Below the pieces are notes generated by a model. That model saw nothing but the letters and a program-made list of their open reading frames with translations, was not told where the DNA came from and did no database searches. A stretch of DNA of 64,000 nt. It comes from Myxococcota bacterium (GTDB lineage: Bacteria; Myxococcota; XYA12-FULL-58-9; JALHOP01). The position numbers and the translations under genes were made by a program. Shown one piece after another: positions 25,751 through 34,159 of this stretch. The stretch's first letter is position 1; each line of letters opens with the position of its first letter. The stretch is taken from assembly GCA_022842935.1 (NCBI GenBank), contig JALHOP010000001.1, forward strand, positions 372,001 to 436,000, read 5' to 3'.

Positions 25751-27904
25751 ATGCGCCTCACTGCAACCCGCGTCGCCTCCCTCATTGCGCTGCTCGCAAG
25801 CTGCACCGGGTCAGTCTCGAAGGATCCGTCTGCTCCATTTCGTCTCATCGTCGTCACCGGCGACGCGCAATCAGCAGTGCGATCTACCGCCGTGCCCGTC
25901 GCTCCCCGCGTGCGTGTGCTGAACGCCGCGGGGGAGAGCATCGCGGGTGTGGACGTGCGCTTCGTGGTGATCGACGGAGGAGGCAGCGCGCTCCCTGAGG
26001 CGCGCGCAACAGACGTTCATGGCGAAGCCCATGTCGATGACTGGCTGCTGGGCCCGCAAGCTGGCAACAATCAACTCCGAGCCGAGGTCGACGGAGTTGC
26101 CCCGGTCGTCTTCTCGGCGACGGCCATCGTCAACCCCAGCGAAATTGGGAGCCCGACGACCACTGGCCTCGTGGAGGGCGACGGACAAAGTGCCCTGGTC
26201 GGCACGCCCGTCGCCATCGCTCCACGTATTCTTGTCACCGACGGCAGCGACAATCCGATTGCAGGCGTTGAGGTGCTGTTCACCGTGATCGAGGGTGCCG
26301 GTATCGTCTCGCCTGCATCGCGCGTTACGGGACCCGATGGAACGGCGGCGCCCGATCAGTGGCTCATGGGCCTTGCCGTTGGCGTGAATCGCCTGCGCGC
26401 CGAGGTTCCGGGGCTCGCTCCGATCTTCTTTCGAGCCAACGCAACACCTGACGCAGCAGGCGCTTTCGTCATTGTCAGCGGCAACAACCAGAACGGGAGC
26501 GTTGGCCAAGCGCTCGGCGAGATGCTGCGCGTGCGCCTCACGACACAGGCGGGCGCCCCGCGCGCCAATCAGTCTGTGACCTTCAGCACGACCAACGGAA
26601 CGGTCGCGCCACTGACCGTCCAGACCAACAGCGCGGGCGAGGCCGCTGCGAGCTGGACACTCGGCGCGACGCAAGGTACGCAGTCCGCGCAGGCGCGCGT
26701 GGATGATCTGCCGGCGCTCACGTTCACGGCCTACGCATTCGGCACGGGCACACCCAACATCAACACGGTGCAAACTGTTGCGACGCTTGGCGGGCGGCCG
26801 TGGGGAATCGGATTCCTGCCGGATGGAACGATGCTGATCACCCTACGTGGTGGCAGCATCGTAGCGTTGCGACGCGATGCCGCGGTCGCCACTGGCTACG
26901 ACCCACAGCCTGTCCAGGTCGCGGCAGCACCGCCTGGCTTCAATGCGCAAACCCAAAGTGGTCATCTCGGCCTCGCCGTCGATCCGAGCTTCGACGTCAA
27001 CGGCTATGTGTTCACCTACGCGTCCATCCAGGGCGCCGGTTCGTCTCAACCCGACAACCGAGTGCTGCGGTGGCGTCGCGTGAGCGCAAGCAACGCGGTC
27101 GGCTTCACCTTACAGCTCGACGCGACGATCTTGAGTGGGATCTCGTGGGGAGACAACGGAGGTCACTCCGGTGGTCGCATCAAGATGGGCACTGACGGCA
27201 TCATCTGGGTTTCGACGGGTGATGTCCGCAATGGCAGTGTGCCGCAGAACGTGGGTGTGCTCGGCGGCAAGGTCTTGCGGATCACGCGCACTGGCGACCC
27301 CGCTCCGGGGAATCCCGACCTGGGGCCTGGCTCGCGCCCGGAGATCTACTTTTACGGAATTCGTAACCCCAATGGCCTGACTCTCTCCGCTGACGGGTCG
27401 ACCGGGTATTTGTGCGAGCACGGTCCGTCGGCACCGCAGGCAGATGAGGTCACCAAGCTATCGGCCGGTGGCAACGGTGGTTGGGATCCCTCCTTCATTC
27501 CGTGCACGACGCCCAGCACGCCCTACTGCGGCACGGGACCACAATGCCCGTGCGAGCAGCCGAGTTGCTACTGCGGCTATAACGGACGACCGACGACGAT
27601 GCAGGTCAACGGCGACGTCGTTGAACCACTTTGGGGCCCGACGGCCGCTGGCATGAGTGGTTGCGACTTCTTGCGTGGAGCACGGTGGCAAGGCTGGGAG
27701 GGCATGCTGATGGTGGGATTCCTGGCTGGCGAGCGCCTCGCGGCGATTCGCATCAACGGGACGGAGACTGGCACGAGCCAGGTCGTCGACCCGGCGCGGA
27801 ATGTCGGGCTTCGTGTTCGCGAAGTCATCAGCGGGCCCGACGAGGCCGTCTACTTGGCCGAAGACGAGTCGAATGGTCGCATCTTGCGCATTCAGCCGCA
27901 GTGA
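25751..27904 (+). CDS. Lipoprotein with Ig-like repeats and PQQ-type sugar dehydrogenase beta-propeller
   Basis: A 717-residue surface or periplasmic protein. MRLTATRVASLIALLASC is a lipoprotein signal (Cys18). Three Ig-like Big_1-type repeats occupy about 30-335; each contains a VxPRVxVxxxxGxxIAGVxVxFxVIxGxG block and ends with a NxLRAEVxGxAPxxF line. From about 345 the glucose/sorbosone dehydrogenase (GSDH) propeller begins: GGRPWGIGFLPDGTMLIT, SGHLGLAVDPSFD, WGDNGGHSGGRIKMGTDG, YGIRNPNGLTLSADG, and a closing VREVISGPDEAVYLAEDE. A cysteine-rich insert (about 577-600) is likely disulfide-bonded. GSDH proteins oxidise sugars with PQQ and pass electrons to a membrane acceptor; PQQ use is inferred. 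Start chosen for the signal peptide. Confidence 0.87.
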   Translation: MRLTATRVASLIALLASCTGSVSKDPSAPFRLIVVTGDAQSAVRSTAVPVAPRVRVLNAAGESIAGVDVRFVVIDGGGSALPEARATDVHGEAHVDDWLLGPQAGNNQLRAEVDGVAPVVFSATAIVNPSEIGSPTTTGLVEGDGQSALVGTPVAIAPRILVTDGSDNPIAGVEVLFTVIEGAGIVSPASRVTGPDGTAAPDQWLMGLAVGVNRLRAEVPGLAPIFFRANATPDAAGAFVIVSGNNQNGSVGQALGEMLRVRLTTQAGAPRANQSVTFSTTNGTVAPLTVQTNSAGEAAASWTLGATQGTQSAQARVDDLPALTFTAYAFGTGTPNINTVQTVATLGGRPWGIGFLPDGTMLITLRGGSIVALRRDAAVATGYDPQPVQVAAAPPGFNAQTQSGHLGLAVDPSFDVNGYVFTYASIQGAGSSQPDNRVLRWRRVSASNAVGFTLQLDATILSGISWGDNGGHSGGRIKMGTDGIIWVSTGDVRNGSVPQNVGVLGGKVLRITRTGDPAPGNPDLGPGSRPEIYFYGIRNPNGLTLSADGSTGYLCEHGPSAPQADEVTKLSAGGNGGWDPSFIPCTTPSTPYCGTGPQCPCEQPSCYCGYNGRPTTMQVNGDVVEPLWGPTAAGMSGCDFLRGARWQGWEGMLMVGFLAGERLAAIRINGTETGTSQVVDPARNVGLRVREVISGPDEAVYLAEDESNGRILRIQPQ

Positions 27905-27948: not shown

Positions 27949-28713
27949 ATGAATCCTTTCTTCTTCGGCACACGTGAAAAACAGCTCTACGGAGTGCATC
28001 ACGCGCCACGCGCGATGACGCGTGATGTGGCGGTGTTGCTGTGCAACGCTGGTCCTCAAGAGTACATGGCTACCCACTGGGCCATGCGCCGGCTGGCCAA
28101 CCTGCTTACGCAGCGCGGCCATCACGTGCTGCGTTTCGACTACCTCGGCACCGGCGACTCGGCCGGAAATCAGAACGGGCTCACGCTCGACACCTGGCGT
28201 GAGAACATCGTGCTTTCCTCGCGCGAGCTGCGCGACTTGTCAGGGGCGAGCAGAGTGCACGTGGTCGGACTACGACTTGGCGCCGCTCTCGCGGCACAGG
28301 CAACCACGTGCGGACTCGATGTCGAAGATCTTGTCCTGTGGGAGCCGGTCGTCCGAGGTCCAGACTACGTCAACGAGCTTCGGGTTCTGGCGCTGCGCAA
28401 GTTTGCCCGCTTACTCTACTATGACGGCGCGCGCGACGACGAGCTTGCAGGCGAGCCGTTTCCACCCGCGATGGCGGAAGAGACCGCGATGCTTGATCTG
28501 TTTGGCGGCGTCCCTCGCGCTAGGCGCGTGCTCGTTTTTTCTTCACGAGAAAAGCCACTTCATCGCGAGCTCGTCTCGCACATCAACGCGCGTGGGGGCC
28601 GGGCGGAGCACGCGACGCTCGCAGAAACGGGAGACAACGACGCCCGAGTAGATGGCGCAATGCTCTCGTCCTCCGTCGTCCACGCCATTGCAGAAAGTCT
28701 CGCGCGTCCATGA
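27949..28713 (+). CDS. Alpha/beta hydrolase-fold protein with Arg at the nucleophile position (exosortase-associated hydrolase 2-like)
   Basis: A 254-residue alpha/beta hydrolase fold: LLCNAGPQEYM, then HHVLRFDYLGTGDSAG (the oxyanion/RFDYxGxGDS motif) and VHVVGLRLGAALAA. In ordinary members the nucleophile elbow is GxSxG; here it is G107-L-R109-L-G, so the catalytic Ser is absent. GLRLGA is, to my recollection, the typical elbow of hydrolase 2 of exosortase A loci, where it is found beside a second hydrolase. The next gene is such a second hydrolase, with a 4-bp ATGA overlap, followed by an NRPS. Likely a binding or editing role on carrier-bound acyl groups, but this is inference. Confidence 0.75.
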   Translation: MNPFFFGTREKQLYGVHHAPRAMTRDVAVLLCNAGPQEYMATHWAMRRLANLLTQRGHHVLRFDYLGTGDSAGNQNGLTLDTWRENIVLSSRELRDLSGASRVHVVGLRLGAALAAQATTCGLDVEDLVLWEPVVRGPDYVNELRVLALRKFARLLYYDGARDDELAGEPFPPAMAEETAMLDLFGGVPRARRVLVFSSREKPLHRELVSHINARGGRAEHATLAETGDNDARVDGAMLSSSVVHAIAESLARP

Positions 28714-29621
28714 ATACGCAACATCTCCCGGTAGTCAGCAGCGATTCGGTAGCATCGGGAACCATCTATATCGAACGTGCTGTGCGCTTCGGCGCACACG
28801 GCGGACTCGTCGGCGTGCTGACTGAACCCGAGCGTCTCGTCGATAATGCGCCCGTCGTTCTAGTCGCGAACGTTGGACTCAATCACCATGTGGGTCCGCA
28901 CCGGCTGTGGGTCGACCTCGCGCGCAACTTGGCGGAACGTGGTTTTGCCACACTGCGCTTCGACTCAGCGGGCCTCGGCGACAGCGAACCACGTCGCGAG
29001 ACAGTTCCAGACATCGAGCGCGCCTGTCTGGACTTGCAAGATGCGATGGACCTCGGGCGTAAACAGCTCGCTGCGACGCGTTTCGTGCTCATCGCGCTTT
29101 GCTCGGGTGTCGACAGCGCTCACCGTGTCGCCCTCCGCGCCTCCCAAGTGGTCGGTGCGGCGTTCATCGACGGCTACTCGCACCGAACGCCGGGGTTCTA
29201 CTTTAGGCACTACATGCTGCGTCCGCTCCAGTGGACGCGTTGGCGACGCTTCGTCCGACGTCGATGGGTGCAGCGCACCACCGGGACAGTCTCGCGGGGT
29301 GCCGAGGAAGGTGAAGCGATTTTCGAACGTCATTATCCAAGCGTAGAGCAGTTACGTAGCGATTTTGATGTCATGCTCGCGCGCAATAAGCGGCTGTTCT
29401 TCGCCTACACAGGCGAGCTCGACGTCAGCTTCAACGCGCGCCGTCAGTTCTACGAAATGTTTCCGCGCCTCGCGGGGCAGGCGGGGTGCGAGATCGAGTA
29501 CTACGCCAAAGCAGATCATGTCTTTTCTTTTGCGAACGACCGCCAAACGCTGGTCGCGCGCCTTTGTTGCTGGATGGAGAGCGGCTTTGGAGAGTCGCCA
29601 CCACTGAACCAACTCCGTTAG
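28710..29621 (+). CDS. Alpha/beta hydrolase-fold protein with Cys at the nucleophile position (exosortase-associated hydrolase 1-like)
   Basis: A 303-residue partner of the preceding gene (ATGA overlap). It has VVLVANVGLNHHVGPHRLWVDLARNLAERG, RFDSAGLGDSEPR, and the elbow IALCSGVDSA, placing Cys131 where Ser is usual; Ser132 is adjacent. A late His is in AKADHVFSF and could complete a triad. Cys-nucleophile hydrolases exist (for example dienelactone hydrolase), so thioesterase activity is plausible. The 3' end overlaps the start of the NRPS frame by roughly 50 bp, implying coupled translation. The Arg-type and Cys-type pair resembles hydrolase pairs of exosortase A loci, although no exosortase is in this window. 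Confidence 0.75.
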   Translation: MNTQHLPVVSSDSVASGTIYIERAVRFGAHGGLVGVLTEPERLVDNAPVVLVANVGLNHHVGPHRLWVDLARNLAERGFATLRFDSAGLGDSEPRRETVPDIERACLDLQDAMDLGRKQLAATRFVLIALCSGVDSAHRVALRASQVVGAAFIDGYSHRTPGFYFRHYMLRPLQWTRWRRFVRRRWVQRTTGTVSRGAEEGEAIFERHYPSVEQLRSDFDVMLARNKRLFFAYTGELDVSFNARRQFYEMFPRLAGQAGCEIEYYAKADHVFSFANDRQTLVARLCCWMESGFGESPPLNQLR

Positions 29622-32600
29622 CGCCCCGTACCAAGGGCTGGGAGGCGATCATTCGCGTCGAGGAAGTTGATTTCGATCCGTTCGCCGATGGCGAAATCTC
29701 CGTCACGGGTCAGTGTACTGCTGCGCAGCGCGAGATCTTCGCGGCGGCGGCCCTTGGCGACGGAGCATCGTGCGCCTTCAATGAGTCGGTTCGTTTGCGT
29801 CTCGATGGGGCGTTGGACGTCGCCGTCTTGACGAACGCCTTGCGTGACCTCGTCGCACGACATGAGTCACTGCGCATGACGTTCTCGAACGACGGGCGTA
29901 CCTTTGTCGTCGCCCGCTCTATTGCGGTGAAATGCCCGGTCGTTTCGCTCGCGAGCGTTGAGGATCTCGAGGCCATCGTGACGGACGAGGTCAGCACACC
30001 GTTCGACCTCGTCAGTGGACCGCTGGTGCGTTTCGTTCTGGCGCGCCTCGATACAAGTTCGCACGTCCTGGTGATCACTGCGCACCACATCGTCTGCGAC
30101 GGATGGTCGTTTGGAGTTCTCGTTCGCGACCTCGCGTGCCTCTACAAAGCCCATGTCTCCGGTCAGAGCCATGAAGCACCGGCTGCGCGCTTCAGCGACT
30201 TCGCGCAGGCTGAGGAGATCTACGCGTCGACGCCGGAGTACGCTGAGGATGAACGTTATTGGGTTGCGAAGTTCTCGCAGCTGCCCGAGGCGCTCGAATT
30301 GCCGCTCGACAGACCTCGCCCCAACGAGCGCACATATGCATCAGCTCGACTCGACTACGCGCTGCCCAGCGACGCCGTCGATGCCGCGCGCAAGCTAGGC
30401 GCGGCCGAACACGCCTCCCTATTCACCACAATGCTTGCCGCCTTCTCGGCGCTCGTCCATCGACTCAGCGGCAACGAGGACGTCGTCGTACTCATCCCGA
30501 GCGCTGGACAGGCAACGAGCGGCTTTTCGGAGCTCGTTGGTCATTGCGTTAGTGCCCTGCCTATTCGGCTCGCCGTACGCAGCGCCGACGCCATGAGCGA
30601 TCTCTTGAAGCGGACGCGAAGCGCCATGCTCGACGCAATCGAGCATCGTCACCTTACCTACGGCGCTCTAGTGCAGAAGCTCGGAGGACAGCGCGAACCG
30701 AGTCGGAAGCCTTTGGTCTCCGTGGTCTTCAACCTCGAACAGACGGTGGAGAGTGAGCGCATCGGCATGGGGCCGGTGCGAACGACGTTCTCGAGCAACG
30801 CGCGTCGATTCGAGAGTTTCGACCTCTTCGTCAATGCGAGCGAACTGCGCGGCGCAGTTACTCTTGAAGTGCAATACGCGACCGAGATGCTTGACGCCCC
30901 GACCGTGCGCACGTGGTTGGACGCGTACGTCGAGCTGCTCCGTTGCTGGGCTGGTGATCATCATCGAGCGGTTGGACGTGTGGCGCTTGGCGCGGTGCAC
31001 CGCAACGTCCACAGCGTGCGTCAGCGCCCACGCGTCACAGCCCACTCCCTCGTCTTCGAGCAAGCACGTCGTACGCCAGACGCGGTTGCGATTGAACAGG
31101 GGACAGAGCGCGTGACGTACATGCAGCTCGCAAGGCAAGCGCGGGCCGTCGCGGAGGCGCTTGCGCGCGTTGGAGTGACGCCCGGTGCAGCAGTGGCAGT
31201 GCATCTCGAGCGAACCCCACGGCTCCCGATCGCACTTCTGGCGGTGCTCGAGGCTGGCGGCTGTTACGTCGCGCTGGACGCAACTGTGCCACCCGAGCGG
31301 CTCCGCTTCATGATCGATGACGTCGGCGCGCGTGTCGTGGTCACCGAAACATCACTCGCGGGCACATTCGGCGATTCGTCCCTCGTCTCGATCGCAATCG
31401 ACAAGATACTCGCCGCTCTGCCTGCCACGGCGGACGAGGTGACATCGATGTCGCTCGGAGACCCCGAGTCAGTGGCCTTCGTTGTGTATACGAGCGGCTC
31501 TACGGGCAAGCCGAAAGGCGTGAGCCTTACCCACCAAGGTCTCGTCAACTGCTTGCTCGGCATGCGCGAGACCCTGGATGTTTCCGAGAGCGATACAGTC
31601 CTCGGCACGGCAACGCTCGCTTTCGACATGGGTACCGCCGATGTATTCCTGCCGCTCATCGTTGGCGCGCGTCTGGTGATTGCCACCGATGAGCAGGGCT
31701 CCGACGGCCAAGCGCTAGCGGAGCTCATCGAGGCTCACGACGTCTCGTTCATGCAAGCTACGCCGTCACGTTGGCGGCTCGTCGTGGGGTCGCGCTGGCG
31801 CGGAAGCGGCAAGCTGAAAGCGGTGGCAGGCGGCGAGGTCCTCACCGCCGAGCTCGCCGAGGCCATCAACGCCAAGAGCTGCGCGCTTTGGAACGGCTAT
31901 GGTCCCACCGAGACATCAATATACGCTACATTCTCCCGCGTGCCGCGCGGCGAGACGCGCATCGGCCTCGGCGAACCCATCCCCAATACATCGCTATTCG
32001 TCGTCGACCGCTATGACGAACCTGTCTTACCGGGCGTGATTGGCGAACTCTGCATCGGCGGTCTAGGGGTTGCACGCGGCTACATCAATCGACCCGAGCG
32101 CAACGCCGCGCGCTTTGGCATGCTCGGTGGCGAACGCATTTATCGATCGGGTGACCTGGTGCGGTGGCATGCCAACGGCTTCCTTGAGTTCGTCGGGCGC
32201 GCCGATACGCAGGTTAAGCTGCGCGGCTTCCGCGTCGAGCTGGCGGAGATTGAGACCGCGTTGCGAACACATGTCGCTATAGCGGATGTTGCTGTGTCGA
32301 CCTATGCGCGAGCGGAGCACGACACGCAGCTTGTCGCATACGTCGTTGGGCGGCCTGACGTGTCGTGGAGCGAGAGCGAGCTGCGTAAACATGTTCGCGC
32401 GATACTCCCGAGCTACATGGTGCCGCACGCGTTCAAGCGCTTGGATGCGTTGCCATTCACAACGTCCGGCAAAGTGGATCGCAAGCTATTGCCGGTTCCC
32501 GAGCCCGATACCGCTGTCTCCGGTCACGTTGCCGAGGTGGCGCAAACACCAACAGAAAAAGCGGTCGCATCTGCCTATAGCGAAGCATTGGGCGGCCTAC

Positions 32601-32830
32601 CCGTCGGCCTGCACGATAACTTCTTCGACCTCGGTGGCCATTCGCTCGCCTGTGTGAAGGTCGTCGCAACCATAGAGAAAGCGACGGGTAAGCGCCTGAG
32701 TGCTCGGCTCGTGCTTCGCGACTCGGTGCAGCAGGTGGCAGCCTACCTCGATGCATCACCATCACCGGTCGACGAGAGTCCGCGGCCGTCGCTAAGCGAG
32801 CGCATCTATTCGCGGTTGTTCAAGCGCTGA
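29564..32830 (+). CDS. Single-module NRPS: condensation - adenylation - carrier protein, no thioesterase
   Basis: About 1088 residues. The condensation domain (about 45-470) has AAQREIFAAA and HHIVCDG (174-180), the catalytic HHxxxDG. Adenylation (about 505-1000) has YTSGSTGKPKGV, NGYGPTETSIYATF, GELCIGGLGVARGY, YRSGDLVRW and FTTSGKVDRKLL with the acyl-adenylate Lys. The carrier domain has DNFFDLGGHSLACVKV with phosphopantetheine Ser1027; a short tail ends the protein. By eye the specificity code is D-M-A-Q-V-G-G-I-Y-K, not matched to a known amino acid. The start is uncertain: no ATG or GTG precedes the C domain after the hydrolase stop, and TTG 29564 or 29567 inside the upstream gene is my best guess. 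Release probably needs a trans-acting enzyme. Confidence 0.87.
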   Translation: MLLDGERLWRVATTEPTPLAPRTKGWEAIIRVEEVDFDPFADGEISVTGQCTAAQREIFAAAALGDGASCAFNESVRLRLDGALDVAVLTNALRDLVARHESLRMTFSNDGRTFVVARSIAVKCPVVSLASVEDLEAIVTDEVSTPFDLVSGPLVRFVLARLDTSSHVLVITAHHIVCDGWSFGVLVRDLACLYKAHVSGQSHEAPAARFSDFAQAEEIYASTPEYAEDERYWVAKFSQLPEALELPLDRPRPNERTYASARLDYALPSDAVDAARKLGAAEHASLFTTMLAAFSALVHRLSGNEDVVVLIPSAGQATSGFSELVGHCVSALPIRLAVRSADAMSDLLKRTRSAMLDAIEHRHLTYGALVQKLGGQREPSRKPLVSVVFNLEQTVESERIGMGPVRTTFSSNARRFESFDLFVNASELRGAVTLEVQYATEMLDAPTVRTWLDAYVELLRCWAGDHHRAVGRVALGAVHRNVHSVRQRPRVTAHSLVFEQARRTPDAVAIEQGTERVTYMQLARQARAVAEALARVGVTPGAAVAVHLERTPRLPIALLAVLEAGGCYVALDATVPPERLRFMIDDVGARVVVTETSLAGTFGDSSLVSIAIDKILAALPATADEVTSMSLGDPESVAFVVYTSGSTGKPKGVSLTHQGLVNCLLGMRETLDVSESDTVLGTATLAFDMGTADVFLPLIVGARLVIATDEQGSDGQALAELIEAHDVSFMQATPSRWRLVVGSRWRGSGKLKAVAGGEVLTAELAEAINAKSCALWNGYGPTETSIYATFSRVPRGETRIGLGEPIPNTSLFVVDRYDEPVLPGVIGELCIGGLGVARGYINRPERNAARFGMLGGERIYRSGDLVRWHANGFLEFVGRADTQVKLRGFRVELAEIETALRTHVAIADVAVSTYARAEHDTQLVAYVVGRPDVSWSESELRKHVRAILPSYMVPHAFKRLDALPFTTSGKVDRKLLPVPEPDTAVSGHVAEVAQTPTEKAVASAYSEALGGLPVGLHDNFFDLGGHSLACVKVVATIEKATGKRLSARLVLRDSVQQVAAYLDASPSPVDESPRPSLSERIYSRLFKR

Positions 32831-33136: not shown

Positions 33137-34159
33137 ATGAGTTCACCGCTGCAGGATGTTGAGTTAGGTCGCGAAGCCGGTCTGCTCGCGGGCTACCACC
33201 ACGCGCGCTACATCGATGCCAACACTCCCGTGCATGTGATCACGCGTGTCTTTCAAGGCAGGCATCTGCTGCGGCCTTGCCCTGAGCTCAACGCGATCGT
33301 TGTAGGCGTTGTGGGACGCGCACTGGAGCGCTTCGCTGATGTTCGGCTCTACGCTGCCGCTTTCCTCTCGAACCATCTCCATCTCATGCTTCAAGGTCCG
33401 CCAACACAGGTCCCAGCGTTCATCGGTTTCATCAAACGCGAGATCTCCCGCCGTTGGGGCCACCGCCCGGATGTGGGCTGGCACGGCACGATGTGGCACG
33501 AGTACCTCGCGACAGCGTTGCCTACGCCAGACAGTGAAGTGCATTGCCTGAAGTATGTCCTGAGTCAGGGCGTCAAGGAGGGTCTGGTCGCCCGTCCCGA
33601 AGACTGGCCCGGCGTTCATTGTGCACGCTCGCTGGCGACGGGCGCACCACTGACGGGAGCATGGCTCAATGCCACAGACTATGGACGCGCGGTCGATCGT
33701 GAGGCTCGGAAGGTCCGCCCAAAACCAATTGCAAAGGAAGACTTTCTCACCGCGTACGATGTGAATTTCGCACCCATCCCGTGCTGGGCTCACCTCGACG
33801 AGCTAGCGCGGCAAGGCGAGGTTAAGCGCCTCATAGAAGAGATCGTCGCTGAAGGAGAGGCCTCGCGTGCCGGCGCTCCGCCACTAGGTGAGCGCCGGAT
33901 CCGTGGTGTATCCCTCGAGCACCGCACAAGCGTCCCTCCGCCGCCATGGTGGACACGACGGCGACGCATGCTCTGCTGGGCTTTGCCGAGCGCCGCAGCA
34001 ACCCGGTGCTTTCTTCGGGCGTACTGGACCTTTCAAGCCCGCTTTCGCGAAGCCGCGATAGAAGACGCGCGACAGCGAGGTGCTGTCTATCCAGAGGGCG
34101 CGTTCATCCCGGGAAGGTGGAAAACAAGTACACCCGCACCAACTGCCCAATCGGCTTGA
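33137..34159 (+). CDS. REP-associated tyrosine transposase-like protein (Y1/HUH family)
   Basis: A 340-residue member of the Y1_Tnp family (IS200/IS605-like, RAYT branch). HVITRVFQGRHLL is the first strand, FLSNHLHLML holds the HUH metal motif His80-Leu-His82, and CLKYVLSQGVKEGLV has the candidate catalytic Tyr140 in the typical RAYT YxxxNPVKAGLV setting, followed by EDWPGVHCARSL. These enzymes cut and rejoin single-stranded DNA at hairpin or repeat sites next to their gene; RAYTs are usually single-copy and not themselves mobile. A C-terminal region of about 150 residues, longer than in many RAYTs, has a WTRRRRM basic patch. Both sides carry repeat arrays with a shared core in inverted orientation, its likely substrates. 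Confidence 0.85.
   Translation: MSSPLQDVELGREAGLLAGYHHARYIDANTPVHVITRVFQGRHLLRPCPELNAIVVGVVGRALERFADVRLYAAAFLSNHLHLMLQGPPTQVPAFIGFIKREISRRWGHRPDVGWHGTMWHEYLATALPTPDSEVHCLKYVLSQGVKEGLVARPEDWPGVHCARSLATGAPLTGAWLNATDYGRAVDREARKVRPKPIAKEDFLTAYDVNFAPIPCWAHLDELARQGEVKRLIEEIVAEGEASRAGAPPLGERRIRGVSLEHRTSVPPPPWWTRRRRMLCWALPSAAATRCFLRAYWTFQARFREAAIEDARQRGAVYPEGAFIPGRWKTSTPAPTAQSA

Follow-up and report, generated by a model that had tools for sequence, protein, structure and literature searches.

A candidate two-component off-loading device beside thioesterase-less NRPS and PKS termini in Myxococcota and other phyla

Thioesterases of types I and II, which serve non-ribosomal peptide synthetases (NRPSs) and polyketide synthases (PKSs), normally act through a serine nucleophile, and stand-alone α/β hydrolases encoded beside NRPSs are often type II thioesterases. 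To our knowledge, neither type has a dedicated inactive partner or a dedicated clade of terminal peptidyl carrier proteins (PCPs). Another pair of hydrolases, exosortase-A hydrolases 1 and 2, occurs in exosortase-A-type loci, which belong to exopolysaccharide regions. Their family names (TIGR03100 and TIGR03101) mark them as no more than hypothetical equivalogs, and in the literature that we searched we found neither a tested function nor a trans-release role for the pair; a Burkholderia exopolysaccharide paper offers only speculation on a TIGR03100 gene (PMC3584217). Release in trans is known for the penicillin-binding-protein-type thioesterases SurE and PenA (PMC11735501), and aminotransferase-containing PKS–NRPS lines are known for mycosubtilin, microcystin and chitinimine (PMC13291983). 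Trans release of NRPS products and exosortase-type hydrolase pairs are, each taken singly, already known kinds of system.

Here we describe a three-gene locus in a 64,000-nucleotide stretch of a Myxococcota genome (the window; source genome 6.28 Mb in 46 contigs, 97.4% complete). On the forward strand, genes for two α/β-hydrolase-fold proteins, referred to here as h2 and h1, precede a gene for a one-module NRPS (Table 1). All three frames are intact and have coding-type G+C. As a first-pass annotation of the sequence had stated, the frames of h2 and h1 overlap at ATGA and the NRPS consists of condensation (C), adenylation (A) and PCP domains; a Pfam scan of the protein found no thioesterase or reductase domain, and the core motifs (HHIVCDG, the A-domain motifs and DNFFDLGGHSL) are intact. 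An overlap of h1 with the NRPS, claimed in the same annotation, does not hold. The mechanical NRPS frame can be extended as far back as a GTG at 29486, but resemblance to other NRPSs sets in only at VDFDPFA (about 29666). Across 29486–29620, codon-position G+C is 0.64/0.58/0.42 in the NRPS frame, which is non-coding-like, and coding-type in the h1 frame; a real long overlap is thereby ruled out. Between the end of h1 and the onset of NRPS homology there is no in-frame ATG, GTG or TTG; a plausible start codon is an ATT at 29651, which GGGAGG (29640–29645) precedes by five bases.

The trio stands alone among unrelated genes, which include heme synthesis genes and genes for a glucose/sorbosone dehydrogenase (GSDH), Hsp33 and an S41 peptidase. 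The GSDH-domain protein, which carries bacterial Ig-like repeats, is encoded on the same strand 44 bases upstream of h2 (25751–27904), and the two genes may share one transcript. Just downstream of the NRPS lies a RAYT-like gene (33137–34159; NF047646, 44.7 bits against a cut-off of 80).

Table 1. Features of the three-gene locus in the window, and the second cluster in the same genome
Feature	Position	Strand	Remarks
h2, α/β-hydrolase-fold putative pseudoenzyme, 254 aa	27949–28713	+	TIGR03101 86 bits, PF12697; model pLDDT 83
h2 Arg109, nucleophile elbow GLRLG	28273–28275	+	Arg in 13/15 carrier-linked or fused relatives and in every exosortase-type row
h1, α/β-hydrolase-fold, Cys elbow, 303 aa	28710–29621	+	TIGR03100 69 bits, PF12146/PF12697; pLDDT 76
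h1 Cys131, putative nucleophile, ALCSG	29100–29102	+	Alignment column invariant; every exosortase-type h1 row has Cys
h1 Asp154, putative triad acid after β6, FIDG	29169–29171	+	Asp/Glu in 12/15 relatives; exosortase-type Asn
h1 His270, putative triad base, ADHxF	29517–29519	+	Kept in full-length h1 relatives except L038
NRPS, C-A-PCP without thioesterase, start uncertain	29651–32830	+	PF00668, PF00501, PF13193, PF00550; homology and codon-position G+C
N-terminal DFDPFA motif of NRPS	29669–29686	+	Common to NRPSs following an aminotransferase-PKS protein
Condensation domain, post-aminotransferase clade	29714–30982	+	Tree support 0.998 with contig-9 NRPS2 C1
Adenylation domain, specificity positions DMAQVGGIYK	31052–32500	+	No standard code recognised
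Terminal PCP, h2/h1-linked clade, one-residue deletion, DSVQQVA	32549–32752	+	Clade support 0.973
Contig-9 cluster (L018; G000 contig 9)	214261–232057		Complete-looking; NRPS1, NRPS2 and h2–h1, no thioesterase

To describe the two hydrolases, we aligned 15 h2–h1 pairs (from Myxococcota, Rhizobacter, a Pseudomonadales MAG and Planctomycetota) and compared them with 18 loci of exosortase type, all from a single order of Pseudomonadota. The elbow residue of h2 is Arg in all but two pairs (L046, Gly; L047, Lys), and no conserved catalytic His was found in h2 across the 15 pairs. In h1 the elbow residue is Cys in all 15 pairs, and 13 of the 14 h1 sequences that reach that far have a DHxF-type His, the exception being L038. 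The h2 Arg and the h1 Cys and His recur in every aligned row of the exosortase-type loci. The h1 position after β6, where the catalytic acid of NRPS thioesterases is known to lie, is acidic in most relatives (Table 1); exosortase-type h1 has Asn there, so the acid assignment is not universal. The elbows named in the first-pass annotation were recovered in context (V-G-L-R109-L-G in h2 and A-L-C131-S-G in h1), and neither protein has the GxSxG serine of type I and II thioesterases, an absence that, judged from the alignments, is a family trait of h2-type and h1-type proteins. The accompanying statement that both hydrolases lack the nucleophile therefore stands as regards Ser, but true loss of a nucleophile concerns h2 alone, because h1 keeps Cys. 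With a conserved Cys, an acidic Asp154 and a conserved His270 in h1, only h2 looks catalytically dead; h1 is plausibly a Cys–Asp–His enzyme and h2 a pseudoenzyme. AlphaFold2 models of both are α/β hydrolases (pLDDT in Table 1), and the h1 model has VIA Z scores of about 18–20 to esterases and thioesterases. The structural matches comprise generic esterases, DcsB and the myristoyl-ACP thioesterase 1THT; as matches to generic α/β hydrolases they do not discriminate function.

The nearest NCBIfam family of h2 is that of exosortase-A hydrolase 2 (TIGR03101; 86.4 bits against a curated cut-off of 202.75), and that of h1 is exosortase-A hydrolase 1 (TIGR03100; 68.7 bits against 168.45). Both scores fall below the cut-offs; the family traits are nevertheless present, as an Arg elbow and linkage to hydrolase 1 in h2, and as a Cys elbow and a C-terminal DHxF His in h1. 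By these measures h2 and h1 are distant relatives of exosortase-A hydrolases 2 and 1, and neither qualifies as a member. The earlier statement that exosortase A loci contain a similar pair near a carrier protein thus proved right in kind, the two families being the nearest ones: in exosortase-type loci an h2–h1 pair occurs together with an acyl ligase and a small acyl carrier protein (ACP), and in 15 of the 18 loci the ACP gene is the immediate upstream neighbour of h2 (elsewhere in the sequence examined in one, not found in two). A link to an exosortase in this genome was dropped: a search of the source genome with TIGR02602 gave no match at E 0.01, an absence that at 97% completeness is not absolute.

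Matches to h2 occur in 56 of 195 sampled genomes of the phylum (E 1e-25), with none in seven listed genomes of the same order. One genus, g42 (probably Corallococcus), accounts for 16 sampled genomes with an h2 match, and in all five examined the match follows an NRPS gene and an aminotransferase gene. The corallorazine pathway was rejected as an identity for this Corallococcus-like cluster, since the corallorazine line terminates with a reductase domain and neither a hydrolase nor an aminotransferase figures in its paper (PMC11342130). Outside this genus, NRPS termini precede the pair in Rhizobacter, and PKS termini do so in one Pseudomonadales MAG and one Myxococcota MAG; in Planctomycetota and further Pseudomonadota it comes after an NRPS or a PKS terminus. 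The five terminal NRPS or PKS proteins from other genomes that were scanned contained no thioesterase or reductase domain. The recurrence of the h2–h1 order across phyla makes the observation more than chance. As regards conservation of the trio, its parts are kept as something like a unit, but the usual order places the NRPS or PKS terminus before h2 and h1, and the order in the window, with the NRPS last, is unusual. In one planctomycetotal locus (L016:1623–4337) A, PCP and h2 form a single polypeptide, with h1 as the next gene, and fusions of h2 to h1 are frequent (L038, L044, L046, L047 and others). Five loci with fused h2–h1 (L044, L045, L084, L085 and L086) lack a detected NRPS or PKS domain, which suggests a further role of the pair; an 866-aa protein adjoins the fusion in L044 and L084. 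In another locus (L089:2424–6278), two tandem h2–h1 pairs adjoin an oppositely oriented NRPS gene.

The source genome itself encodes a second pair, on contig 9, that is 52% (h2) and 57% (h1) identical to the pair in the window. It lies immediately behind a three-module NRPS (NRPS2; (C-A-PCP)x3, 3,148 aa, without a thioesterase) in a cluster that also encodes NRPS1 (A-PCP-KS-AT-ACP-class III aminotransferase, 2,230 aa). The C domain in the window is 51% identical to that of NRPS2 module 1 and 26–28% identical to the other two, its PCP is 71% identical to the last PCP of NRPS2 and 33–36% identical to the others, and the C-terminal tails of the two proteins end alike; the NRPS in the window thus has a C domain of the first type but a PCP of the last type. 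In the C-domain tree it groups with C1 of NRPS2 (support in Table 1) within the C domains that follow aminotransferase proteins, and NRPSs in that position share the N-terminal DFDPFA motif. This placement, which is not that of a starter-type C domain, speaks against the first-pass suggestion that the locus makes a small acyl-amino acid or a tag.

No aminotransferase-PKS donor is encoded near the locus in the window. Ketosynthase matches in the genome include proteins on contigs 1, 9 and 12; with contig 9 examined and contig-12 proteins scanned in part, contig 9 alone was shown to carry an aminotransferase, and within that scope contig-9 NRPS1 is the only clear donor candidate for the module. 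A single-module counterpart occurs in another genome (G027), where A-PCP-KS-AT-ACP-aminotransferase is followed by one C-A-PCP module and then by fused h2–h1. The specificity positions are DVQFIAHVVK in NRPS1 and DILQLGMIWK in all three modules of NRPS2, which suggest proline and glycine, respectively; those of the A domain in the window fit no standard code known to us. On these assignments the contig-9 product would be a proline-derived β-amino acid followed by three glycines, and the module in the window may make a one-residue variant of it. A further NRPS/PKS cluster on contig 12 (L020, 50000–66000) includes an AT-PCP-C protein; its C domains are divergent, and the HHxxxDG pattern was not found in them.

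The carriers beside these pairs form a group of their own. In a carrier tree, 13 of 14 terminal carriers that adjoin h2–h1 fall into one clade (support 0.986). In an enlarged tree the clade holds 17 of 20 h2–h1-adjacent carriers (support 0.973) and no other carrier; those of L016, L136 and L130, 3 of the 17 non-redundant h2-adjacent terminal carriers, lie outside it. The clade is marked by a one-residue deletion before the last helix, where [ST]LxQ replaces PTVxxLA. The mark is present in 13 of 17 non-redundant terminal carriers and in none of 25 others (Fisher P about 1e-7), a post hoc value: part of these data had served to define the mark in the first place. In loci fetched after the mark had been noticed, it occurs in 4 of 6 terminal and 0 of 8 other carriers (P = 0.015), and the deletion alone in 5 of 6 and 0 of 8 (P = 0.003). 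The corresponding region of the exosortase-locus ACPs is not demonstrably homologous to that of the NRPS PCPs. Within single proteins the last carrier departs from its predecessor: in the last two modules of NRPS2 the A domains are 75% and the PCPs 31% identical, and in those of the Corallococcus-like NRPS 90% and 40%, which indicates that the PCP, and not the module, is tuned to the neighbouring h2–h1. In two PKS proteins beside h2–h1 (L011:4057–9990 and L014:4166–9997), an orphan C-terminal fragment of an adenylation domain stands just before the terminal PCP, as if fragment and PCP had been grafted on together with the pair.

The pair sits beside the last carrier domain, with which it seems to have evolved in concert, and is therefore probably a two-part release tool, that is, an off-loading device that acts in trans on the last carrier of a thioesterase-less line. 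From the observed genes, gene order, motifs, families, co-occurrence, fusions, PCP clade and lack of a thioesterase, we infer the interaction of h1, h2 and PCP, and with it the catalysis, substrate, donor and product. In this scheme h2 would be a non-catalytic partner that docks on the specialized terminal PCP and on h1; h1 would take the acyl or peptidyl chain as a thioester on Cys131, with Asp154 and His270 completing the triad, and would then hydrolyse, cyclise or transfer it. Points against the scheme are the three terminal carriers that lie outside the clade, the Asn at the acid position of exosortase-type h1, the residue exceptions in L046, L047 and L038, and the fused pairs in loci that show no NRPS or PKS domain. 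In the window the device would serve the one-module NRPS, the C domain of which is of a type expected to take a β-amino-acyl chain from a PKS-aminotransferase protein. Linkage, fusions and the terminal-PCP clade strongly favour the earlier proposal that the hydrolases act in trans on the PCP; sequence separates neither release from editing, which that proposal had named together, nor hydrolysis from cyclisation or transfer to an acceptor.

Editing would make h1 and h2 proofreaders of mis-primed PCPs, similar to type II thioesterases, with release spontaneous or by an unlinked enzyme. The frequency of such enzymes among stand-alone hydrolases near NRPSs is in keeping with this, and there is no cis thioesterase for comparison. 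Type II thioesterases, however, use Ser and act on all carriers, whereas the special sequence features found here track the last carrier and not the internal PCPs of the same protein; the pair also sits directly behind the terminal carrier gene, and an A-PCP-h2 fusion exists, so that we regard proofreading as quite unlikely. Unlikely, but ranking above it, is an acyltransferase pair that would pass the carrier-bound acyl or peptidyl group to a sugar, polysaccharide or amine and not to water. A Cys nucleophile suits transfer, and in the exosortase-A-type loci the pair accompanies a small ACP and an acyl ligase within exopolysaccharide regions; the locus in the window, however, shows no recognisable glycosyltransferase or acceptor gene.

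As a further alternative, the trio could be a copy of the contig-9 line that is decaying or already dead. Its isolation among unrelated genes, the missing loading protein, the lack of a clear NRPS start codon and the lack of matches in the seven same-order genomes would fit such a history. Yet the three frames remain open at about 50% divergence from the contig-9 copy, with coding-type G+C, complete C, A and PCP motifs and the residues at the catalytic positions of h1 and h2 retained, which makes absence of a present function very unlikely.

Off-loading by h2–h1 would explain product release in thioesterase-less myxobacterial assembly lines, including the PKS-aminotransferase-NRPS line of g42, and the position of the pair beside such termini, together with the dedicated terminal carrier clade and the PCP–h2 fusions, points to a concrete role that can be tested, in which a Cys enzyme with a pseudoenzyme partner would off-load the carrier. 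We tentatively entertain, as possible rather than probable, a wider reading in which carriers of NRPS, PKS and exosortase-A systems are all served by an undescribed, widespread machine that consists of a Cys enzyme and an Arg-elbow pseudoenzyme and has a carrier clade evolving along with it, and in which the termini in the window and on contig 9 share one loading/aminotransferase protein in trans. A shared loading protein would yield two products from one starter line.

Compared with known systems, the pair most resembles exosortase-A hydrolases 2 and 1 in comprising two proteins in the same order, with an Arg elbow in one, a Cys elbow and His in the other and a carrier usually directly upstream. 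It differs in scoring far below the family cut-offs, in belonging to a genome without an exosortase match, in having an NRPS PCP as its carrier and in having Asp, where exosortase-type proteins have Asn, at the acid position. As in the mycosubtilin, microcystin and chitinimine lines, a KS-AT-ACP-aminotransferase module feeds a C-A-PCP module in the contig-9 cluster and its relatives; unlike those lines, these have an A-PCP starter and putative release by h2–h1, and the aminotransferase protein is absent from the window. SurE and PenA are likewise stand-alone enzymes that release the products of NRPSs without a thioesterase domain, the role that is putative here. They use Ser/His/Asn/Lys and combine a penicillin-binding-protein-like catalytic domain with a lipocalin-like domain, whereas h1 and h2, a Cys enzyme and a pseudoenzyme as predicted, are plain α/β-hydrolase folds, each a single short domain that matches only α/β-hydrolase Pfam families. 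That fold is what they share with the type I and II thioesterases of NRPSs and PKSs, with DcsB and 1THT among their structural matches.
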